Source of the DNA: Histomonas meleagridis
Taxonomy: Eukaryota > Parabasalia > Tritrichomonadida > Dientamoebidae
Direction: 5' to 3'
Assembly: GCA_020186115.1 (NCBI GenBank)
Contig: WSYJ01000060.1
Coordinates: 1,984,001 to 2,048,000 of the forward strand
Length of the DNA stretch: 64,000 nt
Positions 17,190 through 64,000 of the stretch are shown piece by piece (within the stretch, counting starts at the first letter, position 1; each line of letters starts with the position of its first letter). The position numbers were made by a program, and so were the translations under genes. A model generated the notes under the pieces. The model made no database searches, was not told the origin of the DNA, and saw nothing but the letters and a program-made list of their open reading frames with translations.

Positions 17190-17724
17190 TTGGTTTTCTG
17201 TTATTTCAACAGAAAATTCCTCCAAAGCCTTTGTTCAAGTAACCGCTCTATCGGTTTGTATAATTAAATTCAATAACCGTAAAAGTGCCGTTATCATCTT
17301 AATTTTTGATTTGCAAAAATATTTTTGTTATCCAATTAATGCTTCTATGAAAACGCTAAATAATAATGATATAACACCTTAAAATTATTAGTTCTTATAA
17401 AGAACTTTCAAAGAATGATAGTAACCATAGAAATAGATTAAAGAAGGAGCTATTCCAAATGAAATTGCGATGATATAGTTAAACCACTTAATGAACAAAA
17501 AAGTACAGATATTAACATTAATGCTAAAATATTTATTAGTTTTGTTTGCATTTGTGAAAACATTAATTAATAAATATTTATTTATTAAAGTTTTAAGTAA
17601 CTTTTAATCTTTACCAGGTTAAAAGTCAAACCAAATTACATGTTAAAATCATCAAATTTTATATCGATATTGTTTATTATAATAATCATTTGATTTTCAA
17701 GTTTTTCAAACATTCTACATGAAT
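17190..17724. other. AT-rich intergenic region, no gene seen
   Basis: The 535-bp gap lies upstream of the Spt20-like gene and downstream of the ARM-like gene at 17725-19065. Near its left end are three Myb-site-like elements: TAACCGCT, AATAACCGTA and GTGCCGTTAT at about 17240-17300. The remainder is AT-rich without coding signal. Confidence 0.5.
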
Positions 17725-45167: not shown

Positions 45168-48100
45168 ATGGATTCTCTTGTTAATCAAGTGATTACTTCG
45201 GCAATACCACCAAAATCAATGGGGCCACAAGATTTTTTTGAGAGTGTCAACATGCTTCAGTCCAAAATCATTAATATTTTTAGATTTAGTTCATTAAGAT
45301 ATCTTCCTCCATTTTTAAATAAGATGCTTACAACCCTTCGCGATAAGTCTTCTTCACAAGACAAAAAAGCTAAACTTTCATCTGCAATTTGTGTCACTGC
45401 TTTAATTCAACTTTTTCCTTTTGATGATTATGTTGTAAACTATCGACCTATTATCGAAAACTTAATTTCTCCAGGCTATCGTCCATGTATTAAAGCCGGT
45501 GCAAAAGCATTAAGTCGAATTGCAAGAATCAATGGTAATAATCGAAATTATTTTCTTCATGAACTTCTTGAAAAACATCTTATGTATCTTACCAGTAAGG
45601 ACCTAGAAGTTAGATACACCTCAGCGACCATATGTGATGAATTATCTCGATCATATCCCGAAGGATTTTTCAATCAAAAGTCATCAACACAACAATTACT
45701 TTTTGATGCTATAAACCAAGCAGATCCTGTCACTGGTTTATTGTTAATTAACATGATTAAAGAACTTTTTCGATCAGAATCCGCATCTGTTGGTTTCAAA
45801 TTCCTTAATGAAATGCATCCATTTCTATTACAAAACTCACTTGAATTGTTTAACCAAAGCAATAAAAACGAAACAATTCATCAATTACTTTATGTTCTTT
45901 TAAAAACAAAACCTTATATTTCATGTAAAGAAGCGCAACAAAAAGTATTACCACAATGTATTAATTATCTTCAAAGTAAAAATTATCAACAAGTTTTATC
46001 ATCCATTAAAATTATTGTTCAATTACAAAGAATTAAAGCTTTAATTCCAACTCAAGATTTAATTAATACATTATTTGAAGTTTTAATAAAATGGTCTTTA
46101 AGTCAACCGGAACAATTCCAAGATATATTTTGTAAGTTTATAGTATATTTCCCAAAGCCACTTATCAGTAATGAAGAATTATTAATGGGGGCCGTTAACT
46201 CGTTTTGTAAAAATATGCCCAATTCAATTGGTCCACTTTTTGCATACAATTTGACCGTCGCCATAATCCATTCAATGAACAACACAAACCTATCGGCATT
46301 CCTATCGAACGTCACCACTTTTTTAAACACATCATCAGTACCAATACCAATACATAAGTTATTACATGAATTAGATGATTCAGTACCTAATTGGACAACA
46401 CAATATTTATTTTTTAAGAATCAAATGATATTTATCATTCGACAAGAATTAAGTAATTCAACAATTTATACAAATCGAATTATTATAGCATTACGAGGAT
46501 TATTACGAATTCCATGTATTAAATATGGAGATGCAATAGAATTACAATCACTTGTAATGAAATATATTAAAAGTAAAGATATCGAATTAAGAGAATATAT
46601 AGTTCCATCAATATTACATTTATTTAATGATTTTCCTGATCGAATTCCACTTGATTTAATTAAAGATTTAGTTTTATTTGTATTAAATGATCCGAATAAA
46701 ATTGTTCGAATTCATTCATTATGTTCATTTACTAAAAACACTTATTCATATTTAATTCAACCCGAAATATTTTCTAATTTCTCCAAATTTTTAAGTGATG
46801 AATCAGCAGATGTACGAAAAGAAGCATTAAATATAATTCGATATTTACCGATAACAGATGATTCATTTTTACGGAATTTACTTTTATCTTCATTAAAGTT
46901 AATGAATTCTAATTTTAACATTATAATTCCTGATGATTCTATTGTTTGGTTAGTTTTCCCACATATATTATTAGCATCTAAATCGATAATTCATTTATAT
47001 GCTGAATCAATTAATGAAATTTTAATGAATATATTAACAAATCGATTTAAGAAAAATGAATATAAAGAAACAACTTTAATTTATATGAATAGTGCCATAA
47101 TGAAACAAATTGATGAATCTTTAATTAAATCAATAACAAAATTGTTTTTATTATGTCCTGAATTAGTACCACTTCGACCAATATTAAAAATATTTTCATA
47201 TGTTTTATTAAATCCTATTCATCCTTGGACTAAAGAAAATGTTTTAAAGTCATTAAAAAACATCGAAAAAGTTCAATCGATATCAGTAATTTATCCGAAA
47301 ATTGCTGAATCATTATTAACTGTCATTAAAAAGAATGAAACTACAAAACTTGTAATTAAAGCATTTAAAGTTTTAGGTTATCATATTAATGAATTTAATT
47401 CTAATATTCAACAAATTAATAATCAAAAGAAGTTTCATATGTTTTATAAATCATCATTTAAAGATAATATCCATTTTAAACAATATTTCATACATAAATT
47501 ATTTGATTATTTAAATAATATGTTTGATTCAGTTAATATTGATTCTACACATGAAGAAATCATTTTAATTATAATTGAAATCTTTAGTAAAGAGCCAAAT
47601 ATTATTCAACAATATATTGAACCATTTTTCACCAAATTTTTAAACTTTATTAAAAACTCTACAACTGATAAAATGCCATTATTCTTATCATATCTTAGTA
47701 AAATTATATTAATATCAGGACATGTAATGATATCAAAAGCTTCAATAATCTTTCAATCAATCGAAAATCATTGGCATTGTGATTATACTAAAGAAGTATC
47801 AAATGTAATTTCTTCATTAATTGAAACTACTGACGGCCAATGTGATTCTATTTTAAATTTAATAGTTTCAGTGTCATTTTTATTATTAAAATCGAAGAAA
47901 GATATGAAGAAATTTACACCTGAAATATTTAATTTATTAAAAACTATAGCAGAACATTGTTATACTTATATGTCATCAATTATTGATGGAATAGTTTCAA
48001 TAATGACAACACAAGAAAGTCCTGATTTCTTAAAAGATGAATGTTTAGAAGCCATTAAATTCATTATCAATAAATGTAATCCTGAACAACATTTAGTAAT

Positions 48101-51100
48101 GATAGCTAGATGTTTAAATAATGTAGCATTAAGATCTAAAAATAGATGGAGAGATCAAGCAAATCAAATCTTAAAAGATATAAATACATTAAATTATAAT
48201 AATAATTTTATTAAAAATGAAGAAAAAGTTATCGAAAATAATAATAAAAATAAAAAAGAAGAAGAAATTATTAAAATTGATATTGAAACATATAAAAATT
48301 ATTTGAATTTATCACATAAGAAAGAAAAAACTCAAATACAAATATTAACATGGTTTAATAATTTAAGAGATTATTCCATTAAAATTTCACCTTTATCAGT
48401 AATACGTACTATGATGAAATTATCAGTACGACCTAAATTTGCATTTAAATATGCGTTTTATTCAATTTGGTTAATTATTAATGAAAATGAACGAAAAATT
48501 ATATCGAAATATTTAAACAAAGTATTTCATGTTTTTGAATTACCAAAATATGTCTTAACTCAATTTATATCAATTGTAGAATTATCGATAATGAGTCAAT
48601 TAGATTTAGGAATAGATTTTACATTAGTAATTTCACGATGTTTAAATTTACATTTATATACTAAAGCATTATTATTTATCGAGAATTCTAATGTACAATA
48701 TAATTCACCTGAAATGATTGAGAAAATGATACAAATTAATATATCATTAAATCGTACTGAAGAAGCATTTGCTATAGCTAAATCAAATCCATCGATAATA
48801 CGTATTCCAATATGGATATTATTAAATGATTGGGAAACAGCATTAGATAAAATATCGAAAGAACCTATAACTAATCAACATAACTTTATATTATATTCAG
48901 CACATTGTTATTCATCATTAGAAAATTGGGATGAAGTATTACAATTAAAACCTTATTTTAAGTCACAATCACCAAATGTTCAATCTAATTTAGCTAAGTA
49001 TATATGGATAGCTGAGTTATATAAAGGGAATAAAAAGAAAGCAAAACGTTTCGCAAATAAAACTGGTGGATATTCTGTTATAGATTGTATCCAAAAATCG
49101 ATTTTATATATTTCTATTAATAATATTGATAAAGCTAAAGAGTTTTCAACTTTAGGTTGGAGATATTTAGCGTCATCATTTGAGAAATATAATAAATTTA
49201 ATAATAGTATCTTTTTAGCACAACAATTACATGAGATTTCACAAGTGATACAAATTAAAAGAAATATTTTAACAAATGAAAAAATTATTAATATTAAAAA
49301 AGAATGGATAAAAAGAATAGAAACATTTAAAGAAGATCCTGATAAACAAATCGAATTATTTAAGATTAGATCTTTAGTTTCGGATAAAATTGAGTTAAAA
49401 GATTTCGCTTATAATATTTTATCAAGTACAAAACGTACTAATAAAAATGTTTTTAAATTAATCGATCATTTCTTTCCTGATGAGAATTCTTATGATTCAC
49501 AATTCTGTAAAATTAAAATGTTAAATGATCCGATTGAACGAATTGATAAATGTATAAATATATTAGGAAATTGTTCGTTAGATACACAAAAGAAAATTAA
49601 TTATTATATCGGAAAAGAAATATTTATAAATACGAAAAAAATTTCGAAATTAAATGAATCAATAAAATATTTACAAAATTCGGAAAAAGGTTTTAATTTA
49701 ATATCGAACATTCAAATGATAATATCCATATTAACTAATAATGAAAATGATATAATATTAACTGCGAAATCTTTAGAGAAAAGTATAATAAATGATAATA
49801 ATAATAAGTTATTAAAAGTTAATCAATTAATTTCATTGTTAATACAATTTCCTGATTCTCTAGAATTAACAGATTTAATCATTAAAATATTATCAAATAT
49901 TTCATCAAATATATTAACAGGTATTAAAATCACCAGTTTATTATCATTAATTAGTAATAATAAAAACATAATAAAATTATTTAAATCAATTTGTTTACAA
50001 ATAGTTAATGATTTACCTCAAACTATAATGTTTGATATATTATATTATATATCAATTTATCCTAATAATAAAACAATACAAAATTTACGATATTTCATCG
50101 AAAAGAATAATTCGACGTTTTTTAATCATTCGAATTCATTAACAACGAAATTAATAAAAATATCAAATACTTATTATGATAAATATGTAGAAACATTAAA
50201 AGAAATCATAAACTTATTTAAAAATGATCAAATTGAAAATGGTTTAAATATATTAAAGAATTTATTACAATCATTAAAATATGTAAATGTTTCACGTTAT
50301 GAAAGTGATTTCTTAACATCATTTAAATCGAATTATGGACAATATTTAACAAATTTAACTAAACAAAAAATGATTACTAAAGAAGACATCAAAAAAATCC
50401 AAAATATATTAAATTCCATAATTAAAAAACAAGATTCAATTCGAGTTATCCCTCTTTCGACACTTGATGAAAAACTTGCACATAAAAATAATTGGCAAAT
50501 TCCAATTTTCGGTAAAGAATTCAAAAACGATGTTACCATTGTACAATTTTGTCAATCATGTCAACGTTTAGATAATGGGTTAATGTTTTCATTAATTGGA
50601 TCAAATGGCCGTAAATATTCATTTCATATCATTCGCGATAATATATTTCATATTCAACAATCAGAAGAATTCACGAATTTAATTAATAATTTATTACCTA
50701 TAAATATATCACAACGTAAAATAATTTGTTTAACTAAAGATATATATATCATTGAAATCCTTAAAACACATTTACAAATGTTTGATTTCATTAATTCATA
50801 TAATAAATCACAATATCAAGAAACGAATTCGAATGTATATGAAATAATTAATGATTATGATGAATTAATATTAAGTAAACGTATACGTAAATTAATACAA
50901 ATACGTAACTTAACGAATCATAACTTATTAAAAAATGCTTTTTTAGTTACTTCTGAAAATAGTTCTTCTTGGATACGTCGTTCAACAATGTTCACTAAAA
51001 CTTATGGAATCATTTCGATGTTTTCATATGTTTTAGGTAACGTTGATACGTCTCCAAATGGTATATTAATTGATAAAGTTACAGGCGCTACAACTTATAC

Positions 51101-51479
51101 AACATTTAAAGTTAATGGAAATTCATTGCCGATACCTTTTAGAATTACTTCAATGATTGTTAACATGTTCGGTAACTCAGGTATTAATGGGCCTTTTAAA
51201 GGAGAACTGAATAAATGCTTGAAAATTATAAGGAAAAACGCAATAGCTTTCGCAACATGTATCCAGTTCGTAATATCGGAAGCTCCATTCGATCAGCCTT
51301 TACTACCAAATCAGTTCTTAAATAAGTACTTAAGAGGAGGAAAACAAGAAAGAGAAATCGAAATGTTTTACGCAAGAATTGCTGGTGAAAAAGGTGAAGA
51401 ACTGGAGAACTTAATAAAGAAGGCTACGTCAATAGAAAATATGGCCCAAATGCCAATGAGATGGTGCGCTTGGTGGTAA
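45168..51479 (+). CDS. TOR-like PIKK with degenerate (pseudo)kinase domain
   Basis: A 2,103-aa protein with TOR order: HEAT solenoid (1-about 1050), FAT domain (about 1070-1650; PKFAFKYAFYSIWLI and NDWETALDKISKEP match TOR's AAFVSCW and WEDALVAYD regions), a reduced FRB-like segment (about 1680-1750), kinase region (about 1760-2040) and FATC. The FATC is well kept (LENLIKKATSIENMAQ, ending RWCAWW, compare WCPFW in TOR). The kinase is not: after GSNGRK (about 1811) the lysine and D-L-R-Q-D-E-R block are absent. The catalytic loop GDRHPSN reads GNVDTSPNG (about 1957-1965), and the metal-binding DFG reads TFK (about 1979-1981). The frame is one uninterrupted ORF, so this is not a pseudogene by structure. 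It is probably a scaffold like TRRAP. TOR origin: likely. Loss of catalysis: strongly suggested. Confidence 0.82.
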   Translation: MDSLVNQVITSAIPPKSMGPQDFFESVNMLQSKIINIFRFSSLRYLPPFLNKMLTTLRDKSSSQDKKAKLSSAICVTALIQLFPFDDYVVNYRPIIENLISPGYRPCIKAGAKALSRIARINGNNRNYFLHELLEKHLMYLTSKDLEVRYTSATICDELSRSYPEGFFNQKSSTQQLLFDAINQADPVTGLLLINMIKELFRSESASVGFKFLNEMHPFLLQNSLELFNQSNKNETIHQLLYVLLKTKPYISCKEAQQKVLPQCINYLQSKNYQQVLSSIKIIVQLQRIKALIPTQDLINTLFEVLIKWSLSQPEQFQDIFCKFIVYFPKPLISNEELLMGAVNSFCKNMPNSIGPLFAYNLTVAIIHSMNNTNLSAFLSNVTTFLNTSSVPIPIHKLLHELDDSVPNWTTQYLFFKNQMIFIIRQELSNSTIYTNRIIIALRGLLRIPCIKYGDAIELQSLVMKYIKSKDIELREYIVPSILHLFNDFPDRIPLDLIKDLVLFVLNDPNKIVRIHSLCSFTKNTYSYLIQPEIFSNFSKFLSDESADVRKEALNIIRYLPITDDSFLRNLLLSSLKLMNSNFNIIIPDDSIVWLVFPHILLASKSIIHLYAESINEILMNILTNRFKKNEYKETTLIYMNSAIMKQIDESLIKSITKLFLLCPELVPLRPILKIFSYVLLNPIHPWTKENVLKSLKNIEKVQSISVIYPKIAESLLTVIKKNETTKLVIKAFKVLGYHINEFNSNIQQINNQKKFHMFYKSSFKDNIHFKQYFIHKLFDYLNNMFDSVNIDSTHEEIILIIIEIFSKEPNIIQQYIEPFFTKFLNFIKNSTTDKMPLFLSYLSKIILISGHVMISKASIIFQSIENHWHCDYTKEVSNVISSLIETTDGQCDSILNLIVSVSFLLLKSKKDMKKFTPEIFNLLKTIAEHCYTYMSSIIDGIVSIMTTQESPDFLKDECLEAIKFIINKCNPEQHLVMIARCLNNVALRSKNRWRDQANQILKDINTLNYNNNFIKNEEKVIENNNKNKKEEEIIKIDIETYKNYLNLSHKKEKTQIQILTWFNNLRDYSIKISPLSVIRTMMKLSVRPKFAFKYAFYSIWLIINENERKIISKYLNKVFHVFELPKYVLTQFISIVELSIMSQLDLGIDFTLVISRCLNLHLYTKALLFIENSNVQYNSPEMIEKMIQINISLNRTEEAFAIAKSNPSIIRIPIWILLNDWETALDKISKEPITNQHNFILYSAHCYSSLENWDEVLQLKPYFKSQSPNVQSNLAKYIWIAELYKGNKKKAKRFANKTGGYSVIDCIQKSILYISINNIDKAKEFSTLGWRYLASSFEKYNKFNNSIFLAQQLHEISQVIQIKRNILTNEKIINIKKEWIKRIETFKEDPDKQIELFKIRSLVSDKIELKDFAYNILSSTKRTNKNVFKLIDHFFPDENSYDSQFCKIKMLNDPIERIDKCINILGNCSLDTQKKINYYIGKEIFINTKKISKLNESIKYLQNSEKGFNLISNIQMIISILTNNENDIILTAKSLEKSIINDNNNKLLKVNQLISLLIQFPDSLELTDLIIKILSNISSNILTGIKITSLLSLISNNKNIIKLFKSICLQIVNDLPQTIMFDILYYISIYPNNKTIQNLRYFIEKNNSTFFNHSNSLTTKLIKISNTYYDKYVETLKEIINLFKNDQIENGLNILKNLLQSLKYVNVSRYESDFLTSFKSNYGQYLTNLTKQKMITKEDIKKIQNILNSIIKKQDSIRVIPLSTLDEKLAHKNNWQIPIFGKEFKNDVTIVQFCQSCQRLDNGLMFSLIGSNGRKYSFHIIRDNIFHIQQSEEFTNLINNLLPINISQRKIICLTKDIYIIEILKTHLQMFDFINSYNKSQYQETNSNVYEIINDYDELILSKRIRKLIQIRNLTNHNLLKNAFLVTSENSSSWIRRSTMFTKTYGIISMFSYVLGNVDTSPNGILIDKVTGATTYTTFKVNGNSLPIPFRITSMIVNMFGNSGINGPFKGELNKCLKIIRKNAIAFATCIQFVISEAPFDQPLLPNQFLNKYLRGGKQEREIEMFYARIAGEKGEELENLIKKATSIENMAQMPMRWCAWW

Positions 51480-51877
51480 ATGAATAAAGATAAAGATAAA
51501 AGAAAATGTTATTTTTTGAGTTAAAAATGATCGGATTACAAATGTTTGGCCGGATGATTACACACACAAAATATATTTCAATAGTTTACTCAGATGAATA
51601 CATGTAATTCATATTAACGTTAAGAATATTAACATAGCATTACATTTGATCCAATAAATTGAGGTAATGATTGATTGTATTTGAAACAATTTACGATCGA
51701 ATAAAATTCGCTTTATAAAGAGAAGTCAAAAAACATCTATGCATGAATATTTGATTAAAGTGACAGTAAAATTCTCTGGTTTTGGTTTTTTCTTTAATAA
51801 TGGAAAAAAATGTGAATATGTGCTACTTAAATTTATTAATTTTAAGCTATAAGTAGAGCTCAAATCTTATTTTGCTA
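51480..51877. other. Intergenic region between PIKK stop and ankyrin-array end
   Basis: This 398-bp AT-rich gap lies between two convergent 3' ends. No frame, RNA gene or repeat is evident. Confidence 0.4.
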
Positions 51878-51940
51878 TTAACCACCTTTTTTCTGAAGTA
51901 ATTTAGCAATTTTATCTGAAGCTGCATATGCAAGTGCATT
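51878..51940 (-). other. C-terminal ankyrin cap with stop codon
   Basis: The last segment reads NALAYAASDKIAKLLQKKGG followed by TAA at 51880-51878. It lacks the INAKDI end of all other segments and looks like a capping half-repeat. It marks the natural 3' end of the ankyrin gene on this strand, 170 bp after the previous segment. Confidence 0.65.
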
Positions 51941-54900
51941 CCTAAATAATTTAAATAAATCCCAAATATTTGTATTAAACTTTATATTATCAAAATAAAT
52001 ATTAAATATAACAAATGAATATCTTTAGCATTAATGTCAATTCCTTCTTGTTCAAGAAGTGATTGAACAATTTCTATATGTTCATTTGAAGATGCATACA
52101 TAAGTGCTGTCCAAAACAATTTAAATAAATCCCAAATATTTGTATTAAACTTTATATTATCAAAATAAATATTAAACAAAACAAATAAATATCTTTAGCA
52201 TTAATGTCAATTCCTTCTTGTTCAAGAAGTATTTTAACTATTTCTATATGTCCATTTTTAGATGCCCATATAAGTGCTGTTTCAAACACTTCTAATAATT
52301 TCCAAATATTACCTTAAAATTTCAAATTATTAAAATAAATATTAAACAAAACAAATAAATATCTTTAGCATTAATGTCAATTCCTTCTTGTTCAAGAAGT
52401 ATTTTAACTATTTCTAGTTTACCATTTTGAGATGCTAAAATAAGTGCTGTATTAAATAAATTAAATTATTTCCAAATAATATTTTGGAATATTAAATCAT
52501 TAAAATAAATTTTGATTAAAATATATAAATAGCTTTAGCTATGATATTGGTCGATTTGTGTCCAAGAAGAGAATTAACTACTTCTGTATTACCTTTTTCA
52601 GATGCATACATAAATGCTGTTCGAAATGTTGAATATAATTTCCAAATATTGTTTTTAAATAAAAAATTATTTAAATAGATATAAAATATAACAAATTAAT
52701 ATCTTTAGCATTAACATCAATTCTTTTATGTTCAAGAAGTAATTTGACTACTTCTGTTCTATCATTTTCAGATGCTAAAATAAGTGCTGTCCTATATGAT
52801 TTAAATAAATTTTAAATAATATTTTGAAATTAAAAATAATTAAAATAAATTTTAAAAGAAAAAAATTAATATTTTTGGCATTAATCTCAATTTTTTTTCG
52901 TTTAAGAAGCAACTTAACTATTTTTCTATGACCATTTCGAGATGATATCATAAGCGCCGTTTCAAATATTTGAGACAAATTCCAAATATTATTTTCGAAA
53001 ATAAAATTATTAAAATATATTTTAAATATAACAAATGAGTATCTTCATCATTAATATATATTCCTTTTTTAATGAGTAAGTTAACTATTTCTGTATGACC
53101 ATTTTCAGATGCATACATTAGCGATGTTTGAATTAATTTAAATAATTTCCAAATATTCTTTAAAAATATCAAAGCTTTAACATAAATTTCAAATAAAACA
53201 TATAAATATCTTGAGCATTAATATCAATTACTTTTTGTTCAAAAAGTAATTTAACTATTTCTGTATGACCATTATATGATGATATCATAAGTGCTGTTTT
53301 AAATATTTTAAGTAATTTCCAAATTTCATTTTGAAATATCAAATTGTTGAAATAAATATTAAATAAAACATATTAATATTTTGAACATTTATATTGATTA
53401 CATTTTGTTCAAGAAGTAATTTAACGATTTCTTTATTACCAATTAAAGATGCTCTAATAAGTGCTGTATCAAATATTCTTAATAATTTCCAAATATTATT
53501 TTGAAACAAAAAATTATTAAAATAAATATTAAATAAAACATATTAATATCTTTAGCATTAATATCAATTCCTTCTTGTTGAAGAAGTAATTTAACAATTT
53601 CTGTATGACCACATTTAGATGCATAAATAAGTGCTGTTTCAAATAAATTAAATGATTCCCAAATATTATTTTATTATATCAAATTATTAAAATAATTTTT
53701 AAACAAAACAAACAAACGTCTCTAGCATTAATATCAATTCCTTTTTGTTCAAGAAGTAATTTAACGATTTCTGTTTGACCTTTTTCAGATGCTTTTATAA
53801 GTATTATATCAAATTATTAAAATAAATTCTAAATAAAACAAAAAAATGTCTTGAATATTAATATCAATTACTTTTCGTTTAAGAAATAATTTAACTATTT
53901 CTATATATCCATTTTCATATGATAACATTAGTGCTGTTTTAAATAAATTAAATAATTTCCAAATTTCATTTTGAAATATCAAATTGTTGAAATAAATTAT
54001 AAATAAAATAAATAAATGTCTTTAGCATTAATATCAATTCCTTTTTGTTCAAGAAGTAATTTAACTATTTCTATATGACCATATTCAGATGATTTCATAA
54101 GTGCTGTATTAAATTATTTCAATAATTTCCAAATATTATTTTGAAATATAAAATTATTAAAATAAATATCAAATAAAACAAATAAATATCTTTAGCATTA
54201 ATATCAATTCCTTCTTGTTCAAGAAGTAATTTAACTATTTCTATATGACCATATTCAGATGATTTCATAAGTGCTGTAAAAAATAATTTAAATAATTTCC
54301 AAATGTTATTTTGAAATATCAAATTATTAAAGTAAATATTAAATCATACAAATAAATATCTTTAGCGTTTATATCAATTCCTTTTTGTTCAAGAAGTAAT
54401 TTAACTATTTCAAGTTTACCATTTTTATATGCATACACTAGTGCTGTTTTAAATAACTTAAATAATTTCCAAATATTATTTTGAAATTTTATATAATCAA
54501 ATTAAAAATTAAATAAAACATTTAAATATTTTTAGCATTAATATCAATTCCTTTGTGTTCAAGAAGTAATTTAACGATTTTTATATGACCTTTCCCTGAT
54601 GCATACATTAGTGCTGTTTTAAATAATTGAAACAATTTCCAAATATTATTTTGATTTTTTAAATTATTAAATTAAACATTAAATAAAACAAATAAATATC
54701 TTTAGCATTAATATCAATTTCTTCTTTTTCTAAAAGTAATTTAACTAATATGATTTGTTTATCATGAGATACTCCCATCAGTACAGTTCTAAATATTTTA
54801 AGTTATTTCCGAATATTTTTTTGAAATATAAAATTATTAAAATAAATATTAAACAAAACAAATAAATATCTTTAGCATTAATATCAATTCCTTCTTGTTC

Positions 54901-57900
54901 AAGAAGTAATTTGACTATTTCAAAATGACCATTATAAGATGCCAACATAAGTGCTGTATAAAATATTTTAAATTATTTCCAAATATTATTTTGAAATAAG
55001 AAATTATTAAAATAAATTTTAAATAAGACAAATAAATATTTTGAACATTAATATCAATTCCTTTATATTTAAGAAGTATTTTAACTATTTCTGTATATCC
55101 ATTTTCAGATGCCAAAATAAGTGCTGTTTGAAATATTTTAAATAATTTCCAAATATTATTTTGAAATATAAAATTATTAAAATAAATATCAAATAAAACA
55201 AATAAATATCTTTAGCATTAATATCAATTCCTTCTTGTTCAAGAAGTAATTTAACGATTTCTATATGACCATTTTCAGATGCTTTCATAAGTGATGTTTT
55301 AAACAATTTAAATAATTTCCAAATATTATTTTGAAATAGAAAATTATTAAAATAAATTCTAATCAAAATAACTAAATATCTTTCACATATAGATTAATAC
55401 CTTTTTGTTCAAGAAGTAATTTAACTATTTCTGTATTATTTTTTTTAGATGCTTTCATAAGTGCTGTTTCAATTAATTTAAATAATTTCCATATATTATT
55501 TTGAAATAAGAAATTATTATAATAAATTTTTAATAAGACAAATAAATATTTTGAACATTAATATCAATTCCTTTATATTTAAGAAGTATTTTAACTATTT
55601 CTGTATAACAATTTTCAGATGCTAACATAAGTGCTGTTTCAAATAATTTAAATAATTACTAAATATTGTTTTGAAATATCAAATTGTTGAAATAAATTAT
55701 AAATAAAATAAATAAATATCTTTAGCATTAATATCAATTCCTTCTTGTTCAATAAGTAATTTAACTATTTCTGTATGACCATTTTTAGATGCTAAAATAA
55801 GTGCTGTTTTAAACAATTTAAATAATTTCCAAATATTATTTTGAAATAGAAAATTATTAAAATAAATTCTAATCAAAATAACTAAATATCTTTCACATAT
55901 AGATTAATACCTTTTTGTTCAAGAAGTAATTTAACTATTTCTGTATGGCCATTTGAAGATGCTAAAATAAGAGCTGTATCAAATAATAAAAATAATTTCC
56001 ATATATTATTTTGAAATGTTAAATTATTATAACAAATATTAAACAAACTAAAGAAGTATCTTTATCATTAATACTAATTATTTTTTGTTCAAGAAGTATT
56101 TTAACTATTTCGATACGACCTTTTTCAGATGCTCTCATAAATGCTGTAAAAAATAAATAAAATAATTTCCAAATAATATTTTGATATATAAAATTATTAA
56201 AATTAACATAAAATATAAAAAATTATTATCTTTAGCATTAATATCAATTCCTTTTTGTTCAAGAAGTAATTTAACTATTTCTATATATCCATTTTCAGAT
56301 GCATAAATAAGTGATGTTTCAATTTACTAAAATAAATTTTAATTATATCAAATAAATATCGTTATCATTAATATAAATTCCTTCTTGTTCAAGAAGTAAT
56401 TTCACTATTTCAAGTTTACCATTTTTAGATGCATACATAAGTGCTGTCTTAAATAACTTAAATGATTTCCAAATATTATTTTGAAATATCAAATTATTAA
56501 AATAAATTCTAACCAAAATATCTAAATATCTTTCACATTTAAATTAATACCTTTTTGTTTAAGAAGTAATTTAACTATTTCTATGTGACCTTTTTCAGAT
56601 GCTTTTATTAATGCCATATCAAATATTTTGAATAATTTCTAAATATTATTTTGAAATATAAAATTATTTATATTTATAAAATCTTTATCATTAATATCAA
56701 TTCTTTTTTGTTCAAGAAGCAATTTAACCATTTCTGTATTACCATTATAAGATGCATTAATAAGTAATGTTTTAAAAGACCCAAACAATTCCCAAATATT
56801 ATTTTAGAATATAAAAATATTAAAACATGTATTATATATAACAAATAAATATTATAACCATTAATGTCAATTTCTTTTTGTTGAAGAAGTAATCTAACGA
56901 TTTCTGGGTGACCGTTTTCATATGCTAACATAAGTGCTGTTTCAAAAAATTTAAATAATTTCTAAATATTATTTTGAAACATCAAACTATTAAAATATAT
57001 TTTAAACAAAACAAAGAAATATTTTTAATATTAATATCGATTCCCTTTTGTTTAAGAAGTAATTTAACAGTTTCTGTATGGCCTCTTCCCGATGCTAAAA
57101 AAAGCGCTGTTTCAAATAATTTAAATAATATTTGAAAATTATTTTGAAATATCAAATTATCAAAATAAATTTTAATTAAAACATATTCATATTTTGAACA
57201 TTGATATCAATACCTTTTTGTTTAAGAAGTAATTCAATGATTTTTGTGTGGCTATTAAATGATGCTAACATAAGTGCTGTATTAAATATTTTAAATTATT
57301 TCCAAATATTATTTTGAAATATAAAATTATTAAAATAAATATTAAATAAAACAAAAAAATATCTTGAGCATTAATATCAATTCCTTTATATTTAAGAAGT
57401 ATTTTAACTATTTCTGTATGACCATTCCACGATTCCCACATAAGTACTGTTCTAAATCATAAAAATAAATTTCAAATTTCATTTTGAAATAATAAATCAT
57501 TAAAATAAATAATAAATAATACAAATAAATATCTTTATAATAAATTTTAATTCCTTTTTTTGCCAGAAGTAATTTAACTATTTCTGTATGACCATTTCGA
57601 GATGCTTTCATAAGTGCTGTATCAAATAATTTAAATAATTTCCAAATATTATTTCGAAATATAAAATTATTAAAATAAATAATAAACAAAACAAATAAAA
57701 ATCTTTAACATTAATATCAATTTCTTTTTGTTTAAGAAGTAATTTAACTATTTCTGTATGACCATTTCGAGATGCTTTCATAAGTGCTGTATCAAATAAT
57801 TTAAATAATTTCCAAATATTATTTTGAAATACCAAATTATCAAAATAAATATCAAATAAAACAAATAAAAATCTTTAACATTAATATCAATTTCTTTTTG

Positions 57901-58702
57901 TTTAAGAAGTAATTGAACTATTTCTGTATAACCATTTGAAGATGCTTTCATAAGTGCTGTTTGAAATAAATTGAATAATTTCCAAATAATATTTTCAAAT
58001 AAAATATTATTAATATAAATATTAAACAAAACAAAGTTATATCAACATCATTAATACAAATTCTTTTTTGATCAAGAAGTAGTTTAATTATATCTATGCG
58101 AGCTTTCAAAGATGCATTAATTAGTATTGTTCTAAAAGATTCAAATAATTTCCAAATATTATTTTGAAACAAAAAATTATCAAAATAAATATTAAATAAA
58201 ACAAATAAATGTCTTTAGCATTAACATCAATTCCTTCTTGTTCAAGAAGTAATTTAACTATTTCTGTATGACCATTTAAAAATGCGAACATAAGTGCTGC
58301 TTTAAACACTTCTAATAATTTCCAAATATTAATATGAAATTTTAAATTATCAAAATAAATCCAAAATGAAACAAACAAATATCTCTAGCATTAATATCGA
58401 TTCCTTTTTGTTCAAGAAGCAATTTAACTATTTCCATATGACCATTTGAAGATGCACTCATAAATGCTGTAAAAAATAAAATAAATAATTTCCAAATAAT
58501 ATATTCAAATTATAAAATATTAAAATAAATTATAAATAAAATAAATAAATATCTTGAGCATTAATATCAATTCCTTCTTGTTCAAGAAGTAATTTAACGA
58601 TTTCTAGATAACCATGTGAAGATGCTAACATAAGTGCTGTTTCAAATAATTTAAATAATTTCCAAATATTATTTTGAAATATAAAATTATTAAAATAAAT
58701 TT
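51878..58702 (-). repeat. Array of 40 ankyrin-coding segments plus C-terminal cap, about 170-bp period
   Basis: Reading leftward, ankyrin segments begin at 58640, 58470, 58300, 58130, 57960 and so on to 52110, with the cap at 51940. The spacing is exactly 170 bp except for 153 (56770-56617), 130 (56447-56317 and 53937-53807) and 167 (53127-52960). Each segment encodes about 31 residues of type TALMKASENGHTEIVKLLL then EQ-x-GIDINAKDI, and I find no stop in any of the 40. The spacers of about 70 nt are AT-only-like, keep ATTTATTTTAATAATTT and ATATTTGGAAATTATTT, change the frame and contain stops. The 167-bp unit lost exactly one codon inside the ankyrin part. The whole probably belongs to the DUF3447 gene immediately upstream. 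Silent-cassette or decay scenarios are less likely but open. Confidence 0.88.
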
Positions 58703-59998
58703 TCAATAAAACAAATAAATATTTTTAGCATTAATATCAATTCCTTTTTGCTTTAAAATGTATGTAACAAGTTCAATATTTCTGGAAAATGAAGCAAAAA
58801 CTAATATATTTTCTGGAAGTTGATTATTTTTAAGGAAATATTTCACAAGAAAAATATTTCCAGTTTTTGCTGCTTCATTAATGATATTTTCATTAATTTT
58901 CATTCCTTCTTTTTCTAAATATGTAAAAATTTCATAATTAAAATATGAAACGCATTTTTCTCCTAATTTTTCTAATTTAATTTTGATAATATTATCCTTA
59001 TAAATATATTTAAATATTTTATCTTCAAACATTTTTGGTATTGATTGTATTTTTTCTGATATATTCTCATAAAGATATTTAAAGATATCATTTCGATGGA
59101 ATTCTATTGCTGCTTCATATGCATCTTCAAATGTTGAATGATTTTGTTCACATAAATGAATAATTTCTTCATTTCCACCTGCAACTGCATATTTACCTGT
59201 GTTTTCCACATTTGCACCATTCATAAGTAAATATTTAAAACATTTAACTGATCCAAAAAATGCTGCATAATCAATTAATGAAACATTTTCTTTATTAATA
59301 AATGAACACCTTTCATAAAGTGATGGTTCAATCGTTTGATTAAAATCAAAATAACCTTTCGATGTTAATTCATGAAGTTTTTCAACATAATCATTTCGAA
59401 TTATTTTTGCAGTTTCATTCGGATTATGTCCTTCTTTAATTAATTGTTTATGAAGTTCAAAATTATTTTTTGATAGCTCTTCATAGCTTTCATAGTGATA
59501 TTTGTACGAGTTATAAAGATTTTGCAATATATTTATTGGTTCGTTTGAAAAATGATGTGCGAAATAAAAATTGTTTTTGTTCTTAACTGAACTTGTTGAA
59601 ACTAAATTCGTTTCAATCATTTTTTCAAGAATGAAATATGATTCTTGAGTGTTAATTTCAAGGAGAAAATCTTTGAATGCATTAATTAATTCATAATTGT
59701 TTTCATAGAATTCTTTTTCTTTGATTTCAATTTGTTTCATAAAATTAATATATAAGCCAAAATCTTTCATTTCTGAAAGAATTGATGAATATATTATTCT
59801 GCTGATAATAAATTTTGAATAAGGTGCTATATCATCACTATTTAACAGAATTATAGAAGCATTAATAGATTCAATAATGTTATTTTCACTCAAATCAAAA
59901 ATAATTTCTTCAAGAGATATTAAATCTTGCATAGGCTTAGTAGAAGAGTAATGATTTACTGGGTCAATATTTGATTTTTTGATCGAATTGCTTTCCAT
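58703..59998 (-). CDS. DUF3447/ankyrin protein, probably the 5' part of a larger gene
   Basis: A 431-aa frame from ATG 59998. Residues about 1-300 are the helical N-terminal region of trichomonad DUF3447 proteins (SLEEIIFDLSENNIIESINA and the SYFILEKMI region). An ankyrin-like part follows: NVSLIDYAAFFGSVKCFKYL, then LLMNGANVENTGKYAVAGGN and NIELVTYILKQKGIDINAKN. The frame then runs into the first array spacer and stops after YLFY. The stop therefore lies in the same kind of spacer that separates the 40 segments downstream, so the protein is probably not complete here. Ankyrin proteins are scaffolds; the target is unknown. AACGTT lies at 60110-60115, about 110 bp upstream. Confidence 0.85.
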   Translation of the reverse strand: MESNSIKKSNIDPVNHYSSTKPMQDLISLEEIIFDLSENNIIESINASIILLNSDDIAPYSKFIISRIIYSSILSEMKDFGLYINFMKQIEIKEKEFYENNYELINAFKDFLLEINTQESYFILEKMIETNLVSTSSVKNKNNFYFAHHFSNEPINILQNLYNSYKYHYESYEELSKNNFELHKQLIKEGHNPNETAKIIRNDYVEKLHELTSKGYFDFNQTIEPSLYERCSFINKENVSLIDYAAFFGSVKCFKYLLMNGANVENTGKYAVAGGNEEIIHLCEQNHSTFEDAYEAAIEFHRNDIFKYLYENISEKIQSIPKMFEDKIFKYIYKDNIIKIKLEKLGEKCVSYFNYEIFTYLEKEGMKINENIINEAAKTGNIFLVKYFLKNNQLPENILVFASFSRNIELVTYILKQKGIDINAKNIYLFY

Positions 59999-60170
59999 TT
60001 TATTGAAATTTTTCTTGATTCAAGCACTTTTGTTTATGCTGTGAATGGTCAAAATAATCGTCATTATCAGTATCACTTTTTGAATACAATTCTATTAAAA
60101 TCGATCAAAAACGTTTTTGTAAAAAATGCCATTAATTGCCATGAGAAAATAACAGATTTTATTAACAAAA

Positions 60171-61262
60171 TTAATAATACCAGCTTTTGATACTGGAAGG
60201 AATTGTATCTGTATAAGATTCACATTCCATTAATAAGTTTTCTTTAGATATTCTCTGTGAATAAATTCTATTTGAGATCGTTGGATCCGCATTTATAATT
60301 GTATTATCTCTATTTGATTCAGCATATCTCTGTATTACATCAAGTACACGATCAACACCAGTTTCATTAAAGAATTTTGCCTGAAATTTCTTGCTCACTT
60401 TTGGTGGCTTAATCACAGGAACTGTCACCTCAGGCACTGTTACTAGTGGATCTTCAGAAGGTCTTCCAAATTGTATTTCACATTTTGTAGTTCCACCGAA
60501 TCTTGTTCCTTGTAAGGCATTTTTAGCACTTTCTGCTTGAACACTGGTTTCCATCGTAACGTTCGCCCAGTCGGGGTGGTCCGGAATGAATTTGACACTG
60601 AGAACGTTACCATACGGTTTGAAATGTTGGAAAAGTGTCTCTTCTTTGACGATTTCAGGATCTATATTTTGTACAATTAATGTGGTGTTAGAAGCATCAA
60701 TTTTATTCGGTTCCATATGAACTCTGTTGCCTGTTGCTTCACTAACTTTTATCCCTCGACCAAATTCTGTCGAACCATTTAAAAGACGAATGGCATCGTC
60801 GACTTCTTTTTGTGTGTTGAATTTCACAAAACCATAACCTTTGGAAATTCCATCTGTTCCTTTGATAAGTCTTGCTGAGATAACACTATGAAAATAACGT
60901 CGGAAAAATTCTAAAAGCCTACTCTCATTGACGGAAATGGGTAAGTTACCAACATAAACAGAATATCCAGTTGCTTGTCTAATTGTATTGACATCTGAAG
61001 ATCCTTTTGTGCTACTCCAATTGAGTTTGAATTGTGCGTTTGGCATGTTTGGAATTGGTGCTCCCTGTAATAAACGAAGAACTGTAGCAGCATCTGAAAT
61101 ATTATTAAATTGAATAAATCCATATCCATCTAGGGTTCCTGTTTCTTTATTTCTTGAAAACCAACATGCTAGAGGAGCAATTCCTGTTTGTTGTCTGACT
61201 ATATTCATTAATTGTTCTTCACTTTCCCATATCTCTGTAGTTCCAACCCAAAGTTGTGCCAT
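60171..61262 (-). CDS. Three-RRM RNA-binding protein, SECp43/Nam8/RBP45-like
   Basis: A 363-aa protein with three RRMs. RRM1 (about 1-85) has LWVGTTEIWESEEQLM and GYGFIQFNNISDAATVLRLL, ending with FKLNWSS, the typical start and end of the SECp43/Nam8/RBP45 group. RRM2 (about 98-180) has YSVYVGNLPISV (RNP2) and KGYGFVKFN (RNP1). RRM3 (about 205-280) has TTLIVQNIDPEIVKEETLFQ and a weaker RNP1. Members act in U1-dependent splicing, mRNA stability or tRNA-Sec biology. Which one cannot be told here. The start is ATG 61262 (MAQLWVG); the upstream extension begins with TTG. The DDB1-like gene diverges 59 bp away. Confidence 0.85.
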   Translation of the reverse strand: MAQLWVGTTEIWESEEQLMNIVRQQTGIAPLACWFSRNKETGTLDGYGFIQFNNISDAATVLRLLQGAPIPNMPNAQFKLNWSSTKGSSDVNTIRQATGYSVYVGNLPISVNESRLLEFFRRYFHSVISARLIKGTDGISKGYGFVKFNTQKEVDDAIRLLNGSTEFGRGIKVSEATGNRVHMEPNKIDASNTTLIVQNIDPEIVKEETLFQHFKPYGNVLSVKFIPDHPDWANVTMETSVQAESAKNALQGTRFGGTTKCEIQFGRPSEDPLVTVPEVTVPVIKPPKVSKKFQAKFFNETGVDRVLDVIQRYAESNRDNTIINADPTISNRIYSQRISKENLLMECESYTDTIPSSIKSWYY

Positions 61263-61321
61263 TAAATTAGGGTGCTCCAAATGATCGGTGTTTTTTGTTA
61301 ACGTTTTTTTATCACTGTTGG
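61263..61321. promoter_or_regulatory. 59-bp bidirectional promoter
   Basis: It lies between the RRM gene and the DDB1-like gene. It contains TTAACGTT (61298-61305) and, 12 bp before the DDB1 start, TCACTG, a good match to the trichomonad initiator TCA-Y-W. Both genes must have short 5' leaders. Confidence 0.5.
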
Positions 61322-64000
61322 ATGACTTTTGGAGTTAAAGCATTAAATTCACCAGAAATATATTCAGATGTAGTATTAGTATCATCATTTGGTTTTAATG
61401 GGGATATGGTAATTTTTGCAAAGGGTTCAAAATTACTTTTTACAAAATATGATAATTGTAGATTTCAAACTTTGTTTGAATATTATATTTTTGGTGAAAT
61501 ATCGCATGTAATTCCAATAAAGCATCCAAAAGATTCTCAAACAAATATATTAATTATATTGGCAGATCTTCAATATGCAACACTTCGAAATACATCAAAT
61601 CATATTGAAACAGTTCAACACGGAAACTTAGCTTCACCTACTGGTAGCATAACAGACCCGCCTTTTAAGATAGCATATAACAATTATTTCTTAATGGCTG
61701 AATTCAATAACCAAGTAATCCAATTTTTTGAGGTTACTCAAACATCAGAAATATCGCCAACATATAGTTGTTTTATTCCTTGTAAAGAAATTATTCAATT
61801 TGATTTTATTGATAGTTCACCTTCATGTCCACGTATTTCAATTTTAACTCGTGAGTTCCAAAACACAACAAAACTTAGCATTTATGAACTGAACATATCC
61901 AAAAAAGTCTTTCCAAGTAAACCATTATGTTCAAGTACATTACCATTTGATGCATATAAACTTCAAGTCATTGGTGCTGATCAATTAATTATATTTACAA
62001 CATCAGCGATTTATCGTGTGTCTTTATTTAAAGACACAACATTAATTCAAGAAACTTCAACTATATTTTCATCACATCCAATCAGTGTGATGACACAAAT
62101 TTCACAACATCAATGGATTGCGACAGATACTGGAGGTAATTTATTAATAATTAATTGTAATATTTCAGGACCAATTACATTATCAAGAATTGGATCTGTT
62201 AATTCAGCTATTAAAATAATTCCTTTAAATTCTCCAATTGTTTTTATTGCATCAAAATTTGGCAAAAATTTCTTTGTAAACCTTTCAAATTTGGGTATAA
62301 TTGAAAGCACGCAAAACTCAAGTAAAGTTAACAAAATATATCGTGTTAATGAAGATGAATTAATTGGAATTACTGAAAATTCTGCACATACAATAAGAGA
62401 AGCATTAAAACTAAAATTGGTTGCATCGACAAAAATACCATTATTAGAAAATGCATATTTTTATGATGAATATATACTGATTGCACATGGAGAACAAATC
62501 TCATTAATTCAATATACAGGAAATGGATTTATTGAAATTAGTAATGAATTCTTTATAATTAATGAGCCAACAATATGTTTTGGAATGCCACAACCTTCTT
62601 TGTATATACAAGTTACACATTCATCTGTCAATAATTCTAATGAACAAATGCTTCAATTCGAAAATATTACAAGTGCTTCAATCTCTGATGAAATTATTGG
62701 AATTATTTCATCAACACCAAATTATTGCAAAGTTGTTATTCTTAATTTAAACTTAGAAATAGTTTGTGAAGTAGATCTTGATTCATTTGCCGAAGCAATT
62801 GCTGTAAGTGATCAATATTTCGCTATTACTTCATGGGCAAATGATTCGATATGCATTTACTCGATTGAAACCGGCAAAATATATAGAAAAATTGAATCGA
62901 AAATAGCGGTTTCATTGATGTTTACAGACGACGGTTTGATAGCCCTTGAGTCAAGAGATCGGTGTTGTGTTTTCTCATTAACAAATGAATCATTAGATAA
63001 AACATTTTATTGTGAAGGGTTACACAATTCCATAATTAAGATCTCTAATACAGAATTTATATTAACAGGTGATAAACCAGTTTTATTACAAAACATGAAA
63101 ATTAAAGGAATTGAATTTAATGGAATTACAAATGGATCGTATATTGACCACAAATTTTTATTAGTTTTTAATGATATATTGTATCTCTGTGAAGAGAATG
63201 GATTTTCGATATCAATAATCGAAAGTAAAATCAACACTAACATTAAATGTTTAACTCAAATCCCCGAAACAAATGATTTTCTAATTGTTACACAAAATGG
63301 ATCTGATACATTTATATCATATGTTGAACATCCATTATCCAATCAAAAGCAAATTGGGAAATTATCGGATGTGAATCATATTGTTAATATTCTCTCAATG
63401 AAATGTGGGACATTAACAATTGTAATTATAATGTTTCATAAGCAAGTATTAATATATGAATTATGTGAACAAATATTACATTTCCATAACAATTTAACAT
63501 TAGAGAAAGAACCATTTCATATTTGTACATTCCAAAATTATATATTAATCGGATTTATTGATGAAATTCGACTTTATGAACTTGAAATCATTTCATTATC
63601 TAACATCGAATTAAAAGAAATATCAAAAATTTATACACAAGGATCAACTTCAAGTATCACTGTTAATGATACATTAATAATTGTTGGCGATGAATTACAA
63701 TCGATAGTTATTTATCGATATAATAAAAATAAACAAAAACTTTATGAAATCGCACGTAATAACAATGATTATGGAATTGTCGCGTGTAAAATATTCGGAA
63801 ATAATATATTCGCTGTCGATTACATTGGTAATGTTTATCAAATGCAAATCGGACAATCGAAAAATTTGGAAAGTGTCGACATTAATGTGTCAGCAACTTA
63901 TAACTTCGGATGTCCAATTAATGAAATCTCGAATTTCGCGAATGGAATTGTATTGGTAACAAATGATTGCAAATACTTCCAAATAGTAAACATCAAAAAA
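61322..64000 (+). CDS. DDB1: DDB1-like beta-propeller protein (C-terminus outside the window)
   Basis: An open frame from ATG 61322 to the window edge, 893 codons without a stop. The N-terminus follows DDB1: GSKLLFTKYDNCRF (compare NTRLEIY), FGEISHVIPIKHPKD, NILIILADLQYATL and HGNLASPTGS (compare AHGNVQDRIGRPSETG). Near the edge, YEIARNNNDYGIVACKIFGN matches the DDB1 segment EEIARDFNPNWMSAVEIL. DDB1 is the adaptor of CUL4 ubiquitin ligases and binds DCAF receptors; full length is about 1,140 aa, so about 250 residues are missing. Paralogues SF3B3 and CPSF160 share the fold; the segments above favour DDB1. Confidence 0.75.
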   Translation, partial: MTFGVKALNSPEIYSDVVLVSSFGFNGDMVIFAKGSKLLFTKYDNCRFQTLFEYYIFGEISHVIPIKHPKDSQTNILIILADLQYATLRNTSNHIETVQHGNLASPTGSITDPPFKIAYNNYFLMAEFNNQVIQFFEVTQTSEISPTYSCFIPCKEIIQFDFIDSSPSCPRISILTREFQNTTKLSIYELNISKKVFPSKPLCSSTLPFDAYKLQVIGADQLIIFTTSAIYRVSLFKDTTLIQETSTIFSSHPISVMTQISQHQWIATDTGGNLLIINCNISGPITLSRIGSVNSAIKIIPLNSPIVFIASKFGKNFFVNLSNLGIIESTQNSSKVNKIYRVNEDELIGITENSAHTIREALKLKLVASTKIPLLENAYFYDEYILIAHGEQISLIQYTGNGFIEISNEFFIINEPTICFGMPQPSLYIQVTHSSVNNSNEQMLQFENITSASISDEIIGIISSTPNYCKVVILNLNLEIVCEVDLDSFAEAIAVSDQYFAITSWANDSICIYSIETGKIYRKIESKIAVSLMFTDDGLIALESRDRCCVFSLTNESLDKTFYCEGLHNSIIKISNTEFILTGDKPVLLQNMKIKGIEFNGITNGSYIDHKFLLVFNDILYLCEENGFSISIIESKINTNIKCLTQIPETNDFLIVTQNGSDTFISYVEHPLSNQKQIGKLSDVNHIVNILSMKCGTLTIVIIMFHKQVLIYELCEQILHFHNNLTLEKEPFHICTFQNYILIGFIDEIRLYELEIISLSNIELKEISKIYTQGSTSSITVNDTLIIVGDELQSIVIYRYNKNKQKLYEIARNNNDYGIVACKIFGNNIFAVDYIGNVYQMQIGQSKNLESVDINVSATYNFGCPINEISNFANGIVLVTNDCKYFQIVNIKK

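Follow-up and report, generated by a model that had tools for sequence, protein, structure and literature searches.

The question raised by this locus is how a gene whose ankyrin segments are separated by spacers could encode one long protein. The gene lies on the minus strand (59998 -> 51878) of a 64,000-nt stretch of DNA, hereafter the window, from Histomonas meleagridis, a poultry parasite, and comprises a DUF3447/ankyrin 5' part followed by 41 ankyrin segments, with a stop-bearing capping repeat at the end (Table 1). An earlier sequence-only reading had described about 40 ankyrin segments behind a DUF3447 start, capped with a stop of their own, and this layout held. The 431-aa ORF at 59998-58703 matched DUF3447 and ankyrin in Pfam, the former (PF11929) at 43 bits against a cut-off of 26.9, which places it in the family, and the cap ended at 51878. 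Unit starts ran from 58810 to 52110 on the minus strand, with unit lengths of 170 nt (37 of 41), 130 nt (two), 153 nt (one) and 167 nt (one). Cores had 30 codons, or 29 in one case, and all 41 were open up to the NAKD-type motif.

Table 1 Features of the ankyrin array gene and of two of its linkers, given as positions in the window.
Feature	Position	Strand	Description
Uninterrupted 5' part	58811..59998	-	396 codons from ATG; DUF3447 and ankyrin-like repeats; from ORF list and Pfam
Array of 41 ankyrin cores	51941..58810	-	Each core followed by a linker in which 17-nt elements alternate with single codons
Example ankyrin core, unit 2	58551..58640	-	30 codons
Example linker after unit 2	58471..58550	-	Coordinates calculated from the 20-nt period
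17-nt elements, unit 2 linker	58550-58534, 58530-58514, 58510-58494, 58490-58474	-	
Codons, unit 2 linker	58533-58531, 58513-58511, 58493-58491, 58473-58471	-	Read I, I, G, F
63-nt linker after unit 13	56618..56680	-	Three 17-nt elements and four codons, first element absent; parsed by hand, the gap-placement test giving no exact 17-mer boundary
Capping repeat	51878..51940	-	20 codons and own stop; end of predicted protein

The array unit had at least 282 matches genome-wide and the 5' part at least 131 (the window itself included, split matches counted twice). A total of 529 cores was found in 54 fetched fragments, and the 17-nt element structure described below was common to 53 array fragments; because loci were picked by similarity to the window gene or its unit, they do not represent a random sample. 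Of the earlier picture of a remarkable intron-rich single gene, the interrupted gene therefore stood, whereas its singularity did not. Relatives in metagenomes displayed the same array design, with 20 of 27 visible linkers consisting of 21 residues and readable straight through; this speaks against skipped elements, although these ORFs were found because they are open. When the joined query was compared with public protein sets, the best 120 of 5,543 matches were to generic ankyrins, with identities no higher than 56%.

Each spacer of about 70 nt had been taken for one intron; it was found instead to consist of successive 17-nt elements, with a retained 3-nt codon between one and the next. In the usual spacer, which spans 80 nt between 30-codon cores, four such elements alternate with single codons, namely three further codons plus the codon preceding TAL. 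Read as codons, the linker triplets spell the ankyrin loop (NAKD-NYGR-T), and the linkers of an element-free gene, L074 (KDDYGKT, KDKYGNT), match array linkers read in this way. With the roughly 159 elements of the window gene left out, the predicted product has approximately 1,805 aa by our own count, in agreement with the 1,750-1,810 aa proposed before. Seven joined window units scored 247.8 bits against Pfam Ank_2 with the linker triplets included, compared to 167.8 to 187.5 bits for seven alternative joins of seven window units; together with the linkers, this score identifies the array as ankyrin repeats (33-34 residues, DxxGxT loop).

The triplets were analysed in 380 units (308 + 72) with a core indel of 0, -3 or -6 and a linker that was a multiple of 20 nt. 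Of the 529 cores, 467 had the next unit 100-420 nt off, and the 87 of these outside the triplet set were judged by length class or singly. Triplets at each 20th position contained no stops (0/1,249 versus 73 expected; 380 linkers, 53 array fragments), an expectation that takes columns as independent and controls for the kinship of units through neighbouring offsets and per-array counts only. At this position, offset 17 of the 20-nt period, stops were absent from both window-type linkers (0/913 versus 32.1 expected) and 20-mer linkers (0/336 versus 41.2 expected), whereas stops at offsets 16, 18 and 19 occurred at about chance (ratios 0.83 to 1.15). The number of array fragments with a stop (n = 53) was 0 at offset 17, compared to 53, 23 and 11 at offsets 16, 18 and 19, respectively. 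The codon preceding TAL was likewise never a stop (0/380). For the 20th-position triplets, the window array taken alone (0/111 versus 3.3 expected) is a weak test. Among the 296 window-type linkers of 80 nt, 261 had a Gly codon as their third triplet, the synonymous GGG and GGT both occurring, and the interior triplets diverged at 1.5 to 4.2 times the fourfold-site rate. On this sequence evidence, cores and single triplets were shown to behave as codons, with the 17-mers not read in frame, and the codons of the array make sense solely with the 17-nt inserts left out.

Outside the C72 array, 360 of 425 linkers carried 17-nt elements only, judged by length, and a further 39 fitted one 17-mer lost or one codon gained; the odd linkers had a 1-nt indel (11/425) or another length (15/425). 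An exact 17-mer boundary was among the best gap placements in 23 of the 63-nt linkers (n = 26), the missing element being the first in 19 and the second in four, often tied with placements 1-3 nt off. Seven of eight printed 83-nt linkers (12 in total; parsed by hand) had one extra codon. A 20-nt unit of 17-mer plus codon would allow the loop to grow by tandem duplication, a single codon per step.

Comparison of the 17-mers with one another showed that their length is held fixed, far more than their sequence. Divergence was at or below the fourfold rate and near neutral; the slowest sites, the last TTT and position 2, evolved at 0.08 to 0.10 versus 0.17 at fourfold sites, the others being near neutral, and no clear recognition signal emerged from the site-rate comparison. 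GT...AG ends occurred in none of 1,629 elements (GT start in 41, AG end in 0), which also covers the GT-AG form of U12 introns, AT...AC (U12-type) ends occurred in one, and the CTAAC trichomonad branch site was absent from all 1,629 elements and all 380 spacers. With these splice signals absent, ordinary spliceosomal introns were not supported. Stop-free triplets restoring the ankyrin loop, combined with the lack of splice signals in the elements, indicate that the 17-nt elements are passed over, either ahead of translation or in its course. Elsewhere in the genome, with ten array loci excluded, 17-mers gave 31 matches against 20 for a reversed control, which is near chance. Rfam gave no match up to E 0.1 for positions 50001-62000. 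When the window was scanned for gaps that would restore frame, 36 clusters were obtained for each of 14, 17, 20 and 23 nt, and these equal counts mean that the scan shows nothing special for 17 nt. Two motif-like matches outside the array appeared in the same scan, at 29757 (plus) and 18083 (minus).

Two earlier points were confirmed: translation does not continue across the spacers, and no single frameshift rule joins the segments. Frameshifting or read-through was rejected, as the 17-mers, read in the incoming frame, had stops at about the chance level, and a stop was present in 49 of the 76 in-frame spacers.

Coding of the segments was also borne out. In 381 window-type units with a following unit (units with a frame-breaking indel left out), the stop-prone columns, core codons 5 and 8, had 61.1 and 69.4 stops expected and none observed. 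Core indels were multiples of 3 in 37 of 50. The proposed dN/dS check indicated no simple purifying selection, with pairwise values of 0.68 to 1.23 pooled and 0.70 to 1.18 in the window alone, several codons being fast-evolving. The sequence-only reading had set a ratio near 1 as a mark against coding, and by that measure the result counts against it; the coding case rests instead on the avoidance of stops, the phase of the indels and an ankyrin loop that is restored.

Among the alternatives, programmed ribosomal bypassing, in which the ribosome would hop over every one of the 17-mers, these being retained in the mRNA (approximately 159 hops in the window gene), is the main rival, though an unlikely one. 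Constant length and near-neutral sequence would suit a mechanical hop, constraint is among the strongest at the TTT beside the resume codon, and exact 17-nt losses among linkers would survive under bypass too. The known cases, phage T4 gene 60 and the mitochondria of Magnusiomyces capitatus, share short skipped blocks that restore frame; excerpts of PMC5009743 give 81 positions in M. capitatus, making many hops per genome possible, several of them with imperfectly matched take-off and landing codons. However, the Histomonas gene is nuclear, with a constant 17 nt and single codons between blocks, and its take-off codon equals the landing triplet in 19 of 1,629 elements, against the matched codons described for gene 60 in the same excerpts. 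Moreover, window-type linkers had no RNA structure (mean z -0.26, 40 sampled) and the 20-mer type was mildly structured (z -2.17, 30 sampled), and so many hops per protein would demand very high efficiency.

It is improbable that the arrays are decaying pseudogene satellites with open segments left over. Tandem amplification and dN/dS near 1 would fit decay, as would the 14 of 529 cores with an in-frame stop, six of which are a single insertion amplified within one array, and the frame-breaking 1-nt insertion amplified in the C72 array (6/38 cores); some arrays may indeed be dying. Against this stand the complete lack of stops in triplets whose divergence exceeds that of fourfold sites, three stops over the 30 core codons of 381 units where column composition predicts about 187 (own sum), last cores running into their own stop in 14 of 36 printed, and the same design in metagenome relatives.

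A single spliceosomal intron of approximately 70 to 280 nt per spacer is very improbable. The coding borders are sharp at both spacer sides and the genome carries a Prp8 gene, but the interior triplets avoid stops and restore the loop, the consensus 3' border has no frame-keeping AG before it, and CTAAC is lacking in all spacers whilst the genome carries intron-like GTATGT...TCTAAC...CAG sequences. Junctions keeping 3 to 21 bases were scored for stops; the longest stop-free one kept nine bases and gave a 33-codon unit without the ankyrin Gly, and the one-junction model was dropped once variable triplets were seen to recur every 20 nt. Canonical trichomonad introns, searched as ACTAACACACAG, were at chance genome-wide (3 versus 2 at 0 mismatches, 131 versus 130 at 1 mismatch), and a relaxed pattern was not enriched by count (22 matches versus 30 in the control); ten of these 22 resemble 23-25 nt type B introns and are candidates, which the array spacers do not resemble. 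Equally hard to credit is a store of silent cassettes from which gene conversion would copy segments into a gene that is expressed, since although segments could stay open without direct expression and the array lay behind an expressed-looking gene in six cases compared by coordinate, unit 1, in the expressed frame, is its own sequence type in the genes compared (window, L049, L053, L054 and L055), loop codons split by 17-mers are not copyable as a block, and the arrays have their own C-terminal caps.

We therefore return to RNA-level excision, which we favour over bypass. The locus probably encodes one long ankyrin protein, with untranslated 17-nt elements excised from RNA by a non-spliceosomal route. 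The loop codons between NAKD and TAL would be kept apart by these elements, which, as ultra-short introns of a type other than spliceosomal GT-AG, would leave the RNA ahead of translation, and the product would be a standard ankyrin solenoid with diversified loop residues. Linker-crossing tryptic peptides with the elements skipped, e.g. GIDINAKDDYGQTALILASENGYTEIVK, are predicted. The balance tips slightly towards a nuclear genome in which a dedicated, non-spliceosomal, length-measuring process takes elements of exactly 17 nt out of transcripts at well over a thousand sites, leaving single-codon exons. Such machinery may gauge 17 nt, or the ends may be marked by features other than those recognised here. 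By analogy alone, RtcB ligase and tRNA-intron endonuclease, each with two matches in the genome, are candidate enzymes.

On the features compared, the elements match no kind of intron or recoding tested. Like the ultra-short spliceosomal introns of Stentor coeruleus (15-16 nt) and Trichomonas vaginalis (type B, 23-25 nt), they are tiny, AU-rich, narrow in length and found in nuclear genes; unlike them, they lack GT...AG and CTAAC, those introns being described in passages of PMC9505925 and PMC12316389 as mostly or always having a GT start, an AG end and a branch point. Passages of PMC12316389 also give T. vaginalis genes one intron each and T. stableri genes no more than two, whereas the window gene would have approximately 159 elements and 3-nt exons. 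Euglenid nonconventional introns share nuclear genes, non-GT-AG borders and a removal mechanism that is not known, and show terminal base pairing (PMC11170887, PMC4770533, PMC6221363). On that feature the array gives a mixed picture, as the 17-mers alone fold below zero in 64 of 1,629 cases and the linkers reach z -0.26 in the window type and -2.17 in the 20-mer type. Ciliate internal eliminated sequences are also short AT-rich inserts with preferred lengths inside genes, but their removal takes place at the DNA level, in a second nucleus, and Histomonas is not known to have such a nucleus.

If confirmed, the 17-nt elements would constitute a new class, and genes could hold each loop codon isolated by a fixed-length insert, an arrangement that the splicing and recoding systems compared here disallow. 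This would point to RNA or ribosome machinery so far unknown, in a parabasalid, as well as to large numbers of single-codon exons, and the elements may explain why such genes escape annotation, genes in the published Histomonas set having no more than one intron each (PMC8529796). It would also provide a simple route to lengthen and diversify a binding loop, codon by codon.

The array of the ankyrin gene in the window consists of units of 170 nt (37 units), 130 nt (2), 153 nt (1) and 167 nt (1), each with a core of about 30 codons (consensus approximately TALMxASENGHTEIVKLLLEQKGIDINAKD) and a spacer, or linker, running from the NAKD-type motif to the TAL of the next core. Tail to tail with the gene lies a 2,103-aa ORF (45168-51479, plus strand) that matches PI3/PI4 kinase and, below threshold, FATC and FAT; it is likely a PI3K-related kinase.

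Parts of the ankyrin gene in the window
Feature	Position	Strand	Description
ORF	starts 59998	minus	open for 431 codons; DUF3447 and ankyrin matches
Ankyrin array, 41 units	unit starts 58810 to 52110	minus	begins after 396 codons of the ORF
Capping repeat with stop	ends 51878	minus	follows the 41 units

Conservation across 245 distinct 80-nt spacers revealed four conserved 17-nt blocks (hereafter elements), with a triplet after each; triplets 1, 2 and 4 were variable and the third was a conserved GGA. This contradicts the sequence-only reading, in which the gene was split by more than 40 regular introns, one per spacer. When the triplets are taken as codons and the 17-mers are skipped, the linker becomes D-x-x-G-x-T, the standard ankyrin loop. 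In some other arrays the spacer is a tandem 20-mer (AATATGTTTTAATAATTTGG and variants) of variable copy number. No triplet at offset 17 (20-nt period) was a stop in either window-type (0/913 vs 32.1 expected) or 20-mer-type spacers (0/336 vs 41.2 expected), and at offsets 16, 18 and 19 the observed/expected ratio was 0.83 to 1.15. Likewise, none of 53 array fragments had a stop at offset 17, compared to 53 fragments at offset 16, 23 at 18 and 11 at 19. The window gene by itself gave 0/111, small numbers with just 3.3 expected.

Linkers of the window gene decoded as NAKD-NYGR, NAKD-NDGF, NAKD-DYGN and so on, resembling those of a long element-free ankyrin gene (KDDYGKT, KDKYGNT; L074, C50:467827-468120 and surroundings); Gly was absent at the third place in 6/37 four-codon linkers. 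Upstream of L074, a repeat of 20 residues, SNSTGFKSGFGLTSNTTSAP, occurs in many copies. Joined with their triplets, seven neighbouring units scored 247.8 bits against Pfam Ank_2, compared to 186.8 bits without the three interior codons, 182.4 with a nine-base junction, and 169.5, 187.5, 180.7, 167.8 and 186.9 with triplets from offsets 0, 3, 14, 11 and 16, respectively. These protein-model scores are an independent check on the triplet reading. At the level of sequence, the data show a pattern in which codons would be kept and 17-mers ignored. The window gene has 159 elements, 152 in 39 regular linkers, 4 after unit 41 and 3, assigned by manual parse, in a 63-nt linker.

Stops per codon column were compared with those expected from column base frequencies in 381 window-type units, frame-breaking indels excluded. 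None occurred at core codons 5 and 8 (61.1 and 69.4 expected) or at the codon before TAL (31.2 expected), and all 30 core codons summed to 3 vs ~187 expected. Beyond the coding limits stops were close to chance, with 17 vs 17.0 at the second codon past NAKD and 16 vs 22.3 three codons upstream of TAL. Only 14/529 of all cores contained a stop, six owing to a single amplified insertion in the C72 array, and 37/50 core indels were multiples of three. Judged by these counts the cores are coding, as the sequence-only reading had held; pairwise dN/dS, its proposed check, ranged from 0.68 to 1.23 for the pooled set, which alone is not proof of purifying selection. Of 36 last cores inspected over 30 codons, 14 ran into a stop of their own and the rest lay at a cut fragment end or continued; such stops fit translation through the array because internal cores seldom contain any.

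Element length is tightly kept. Judged by length, 360/425 linkers outside the C72 array contained only 17-nt elements; 39 fitted one element lost or one codon gained, 11 had a 1-nt indel and 15 were of other kinds. In 23/26 63-nt spacers an exact 17-mer boundary was among the best gap placements (19 first element, 4 second), frequently no better than one a few bases off, and these spacers decoded to four codons; the spacer of window unit 13, among the other three, fell into the same class when parsed by eye. One additional codon was present in 7/8 inspected 83-nt spacers (12 in total), the remaining one, in C72, having three 1-nt changes instead. Linkers of 20-mer arrays had 2 to 14 codons, and 389/467 spacers were multiples of 20 nt (range 40 to 280). 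The C72 array (L064, 127600-136900; ~39 units) has a 1-nt insertion in 6/38 cores, and several of its linkers contain elements of 18 nt; this could mean that the array is losing function, or that 18 nt is tolerated. Across four distance bins of unit pairs, divergence per site was 0.040, 0.080, 0.144 and 0.205 for 17-mers, 0.047, 0.088, 0.171 and 0.297 for fourfold sites, and 0.196, 0.322, 0.404 and 0.440 for interior triplets, indicating near-neutral 17-mers, mildly constrained at larger distances, and diversified loop codons. The slowest 17-mer sites were the final TTT and position 2 (0.08 to 0.10 vs 0.17 at fourfold sites).

The assembly searched (43,276,120 bases, 121 contigs) held at least 282 matches to the 170-nt unit and at least 131 to the 431-aa protein, split matches counted twice; the fetched loci gave 529 cores in 54 fragments. 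A 39-base piece of the 20-mer spacer had 1,668 matches at ≤3 mismatches (reversed control, 0). By coordinate comparison, six arrays (C1, C40:1463k, C55:532k, C96, C105, C114:208k) follow such a gene in the same orientation; in a seventh case, C57:469k, the nearest gene match among those listed was on the opposite strand. A plus-strand relic at window 17440-17550 resembles an ankyrin-family piece followed by 17-mer-like sequence (ATTTATTAGTTTTGTTT) and is probably a decayed copy. Transposase-like pieces, presumably of mariner/Tc type, occupy adjacent open frames near the ankyrin array at L071 (minus strand). ACTAACACATAG recurs near contig ends, often about every 825 nt (C9:2517-24247, C53:618886-620492, C55:913585-928629, C84:1707642-1716860), which suggests a subtelomeric tandem repeat.

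Metagenome proteins with ~50% identity over the N-terminal part have a comparable translated spacer (e.g. P0003), and a further set of 43 proteins shows arrays with linkers like NVYFNNLIFQNNIWNFFKLFE. In this sample, which is biased to open frames, 20/27 junctions were of 21 residues, fitting three 17-nt elements plus four codons, and P0006 had one junction without elements (SKN-VMFE-SALM). The in-frame spacer of these relatives could also be translated.

Among 1,629 elements (460 distinct; G+C 5.8%), none had GT...AG ends or contained CTAAC, and one had AT...AC ends. Intron-like sequences in the genome have the form GTATGTTTTAATTCTAACATCAG, a pattern whose count was not above its control. Sequences of 23-25 nt (GTATGT...TCTAAC...CAG) at C2:301878, C8:470311, C40:8962, C48:820095, C74:504606, C107:137946 and C112:204357 look, from their motifs, like genuine short trichomonad introns, and a Prp8 gene, named from its Pfam family, is present with a 2,333-aa open frame. 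For the virulent strain, the genome paper counts 573 predicted introns and no gene with more than one (PMC8529796). No report of such 17-nt elements was found in the literature searched.

Ribosomes might instead skip the 17-mers by hopping. Take-off codon and landing triplet were equal in only 19/1,629 elements, evidence against bypassing through codon re-pairing. RNA structure was not seen in 40 sampled window-type linkers (z -0.26) and was mild in 30 sampled 20-mer-type linkers (z -2.17). The genome has RtcB and tRNA endonuclease genes, with no tie to the 17-nt elements seen. We favour a route in which the elements would be excised from RNA, because bypass of the window gene would take ~159 hops without matched codons. 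By arithmetic, its predicted protein would be about 1,805 aa.
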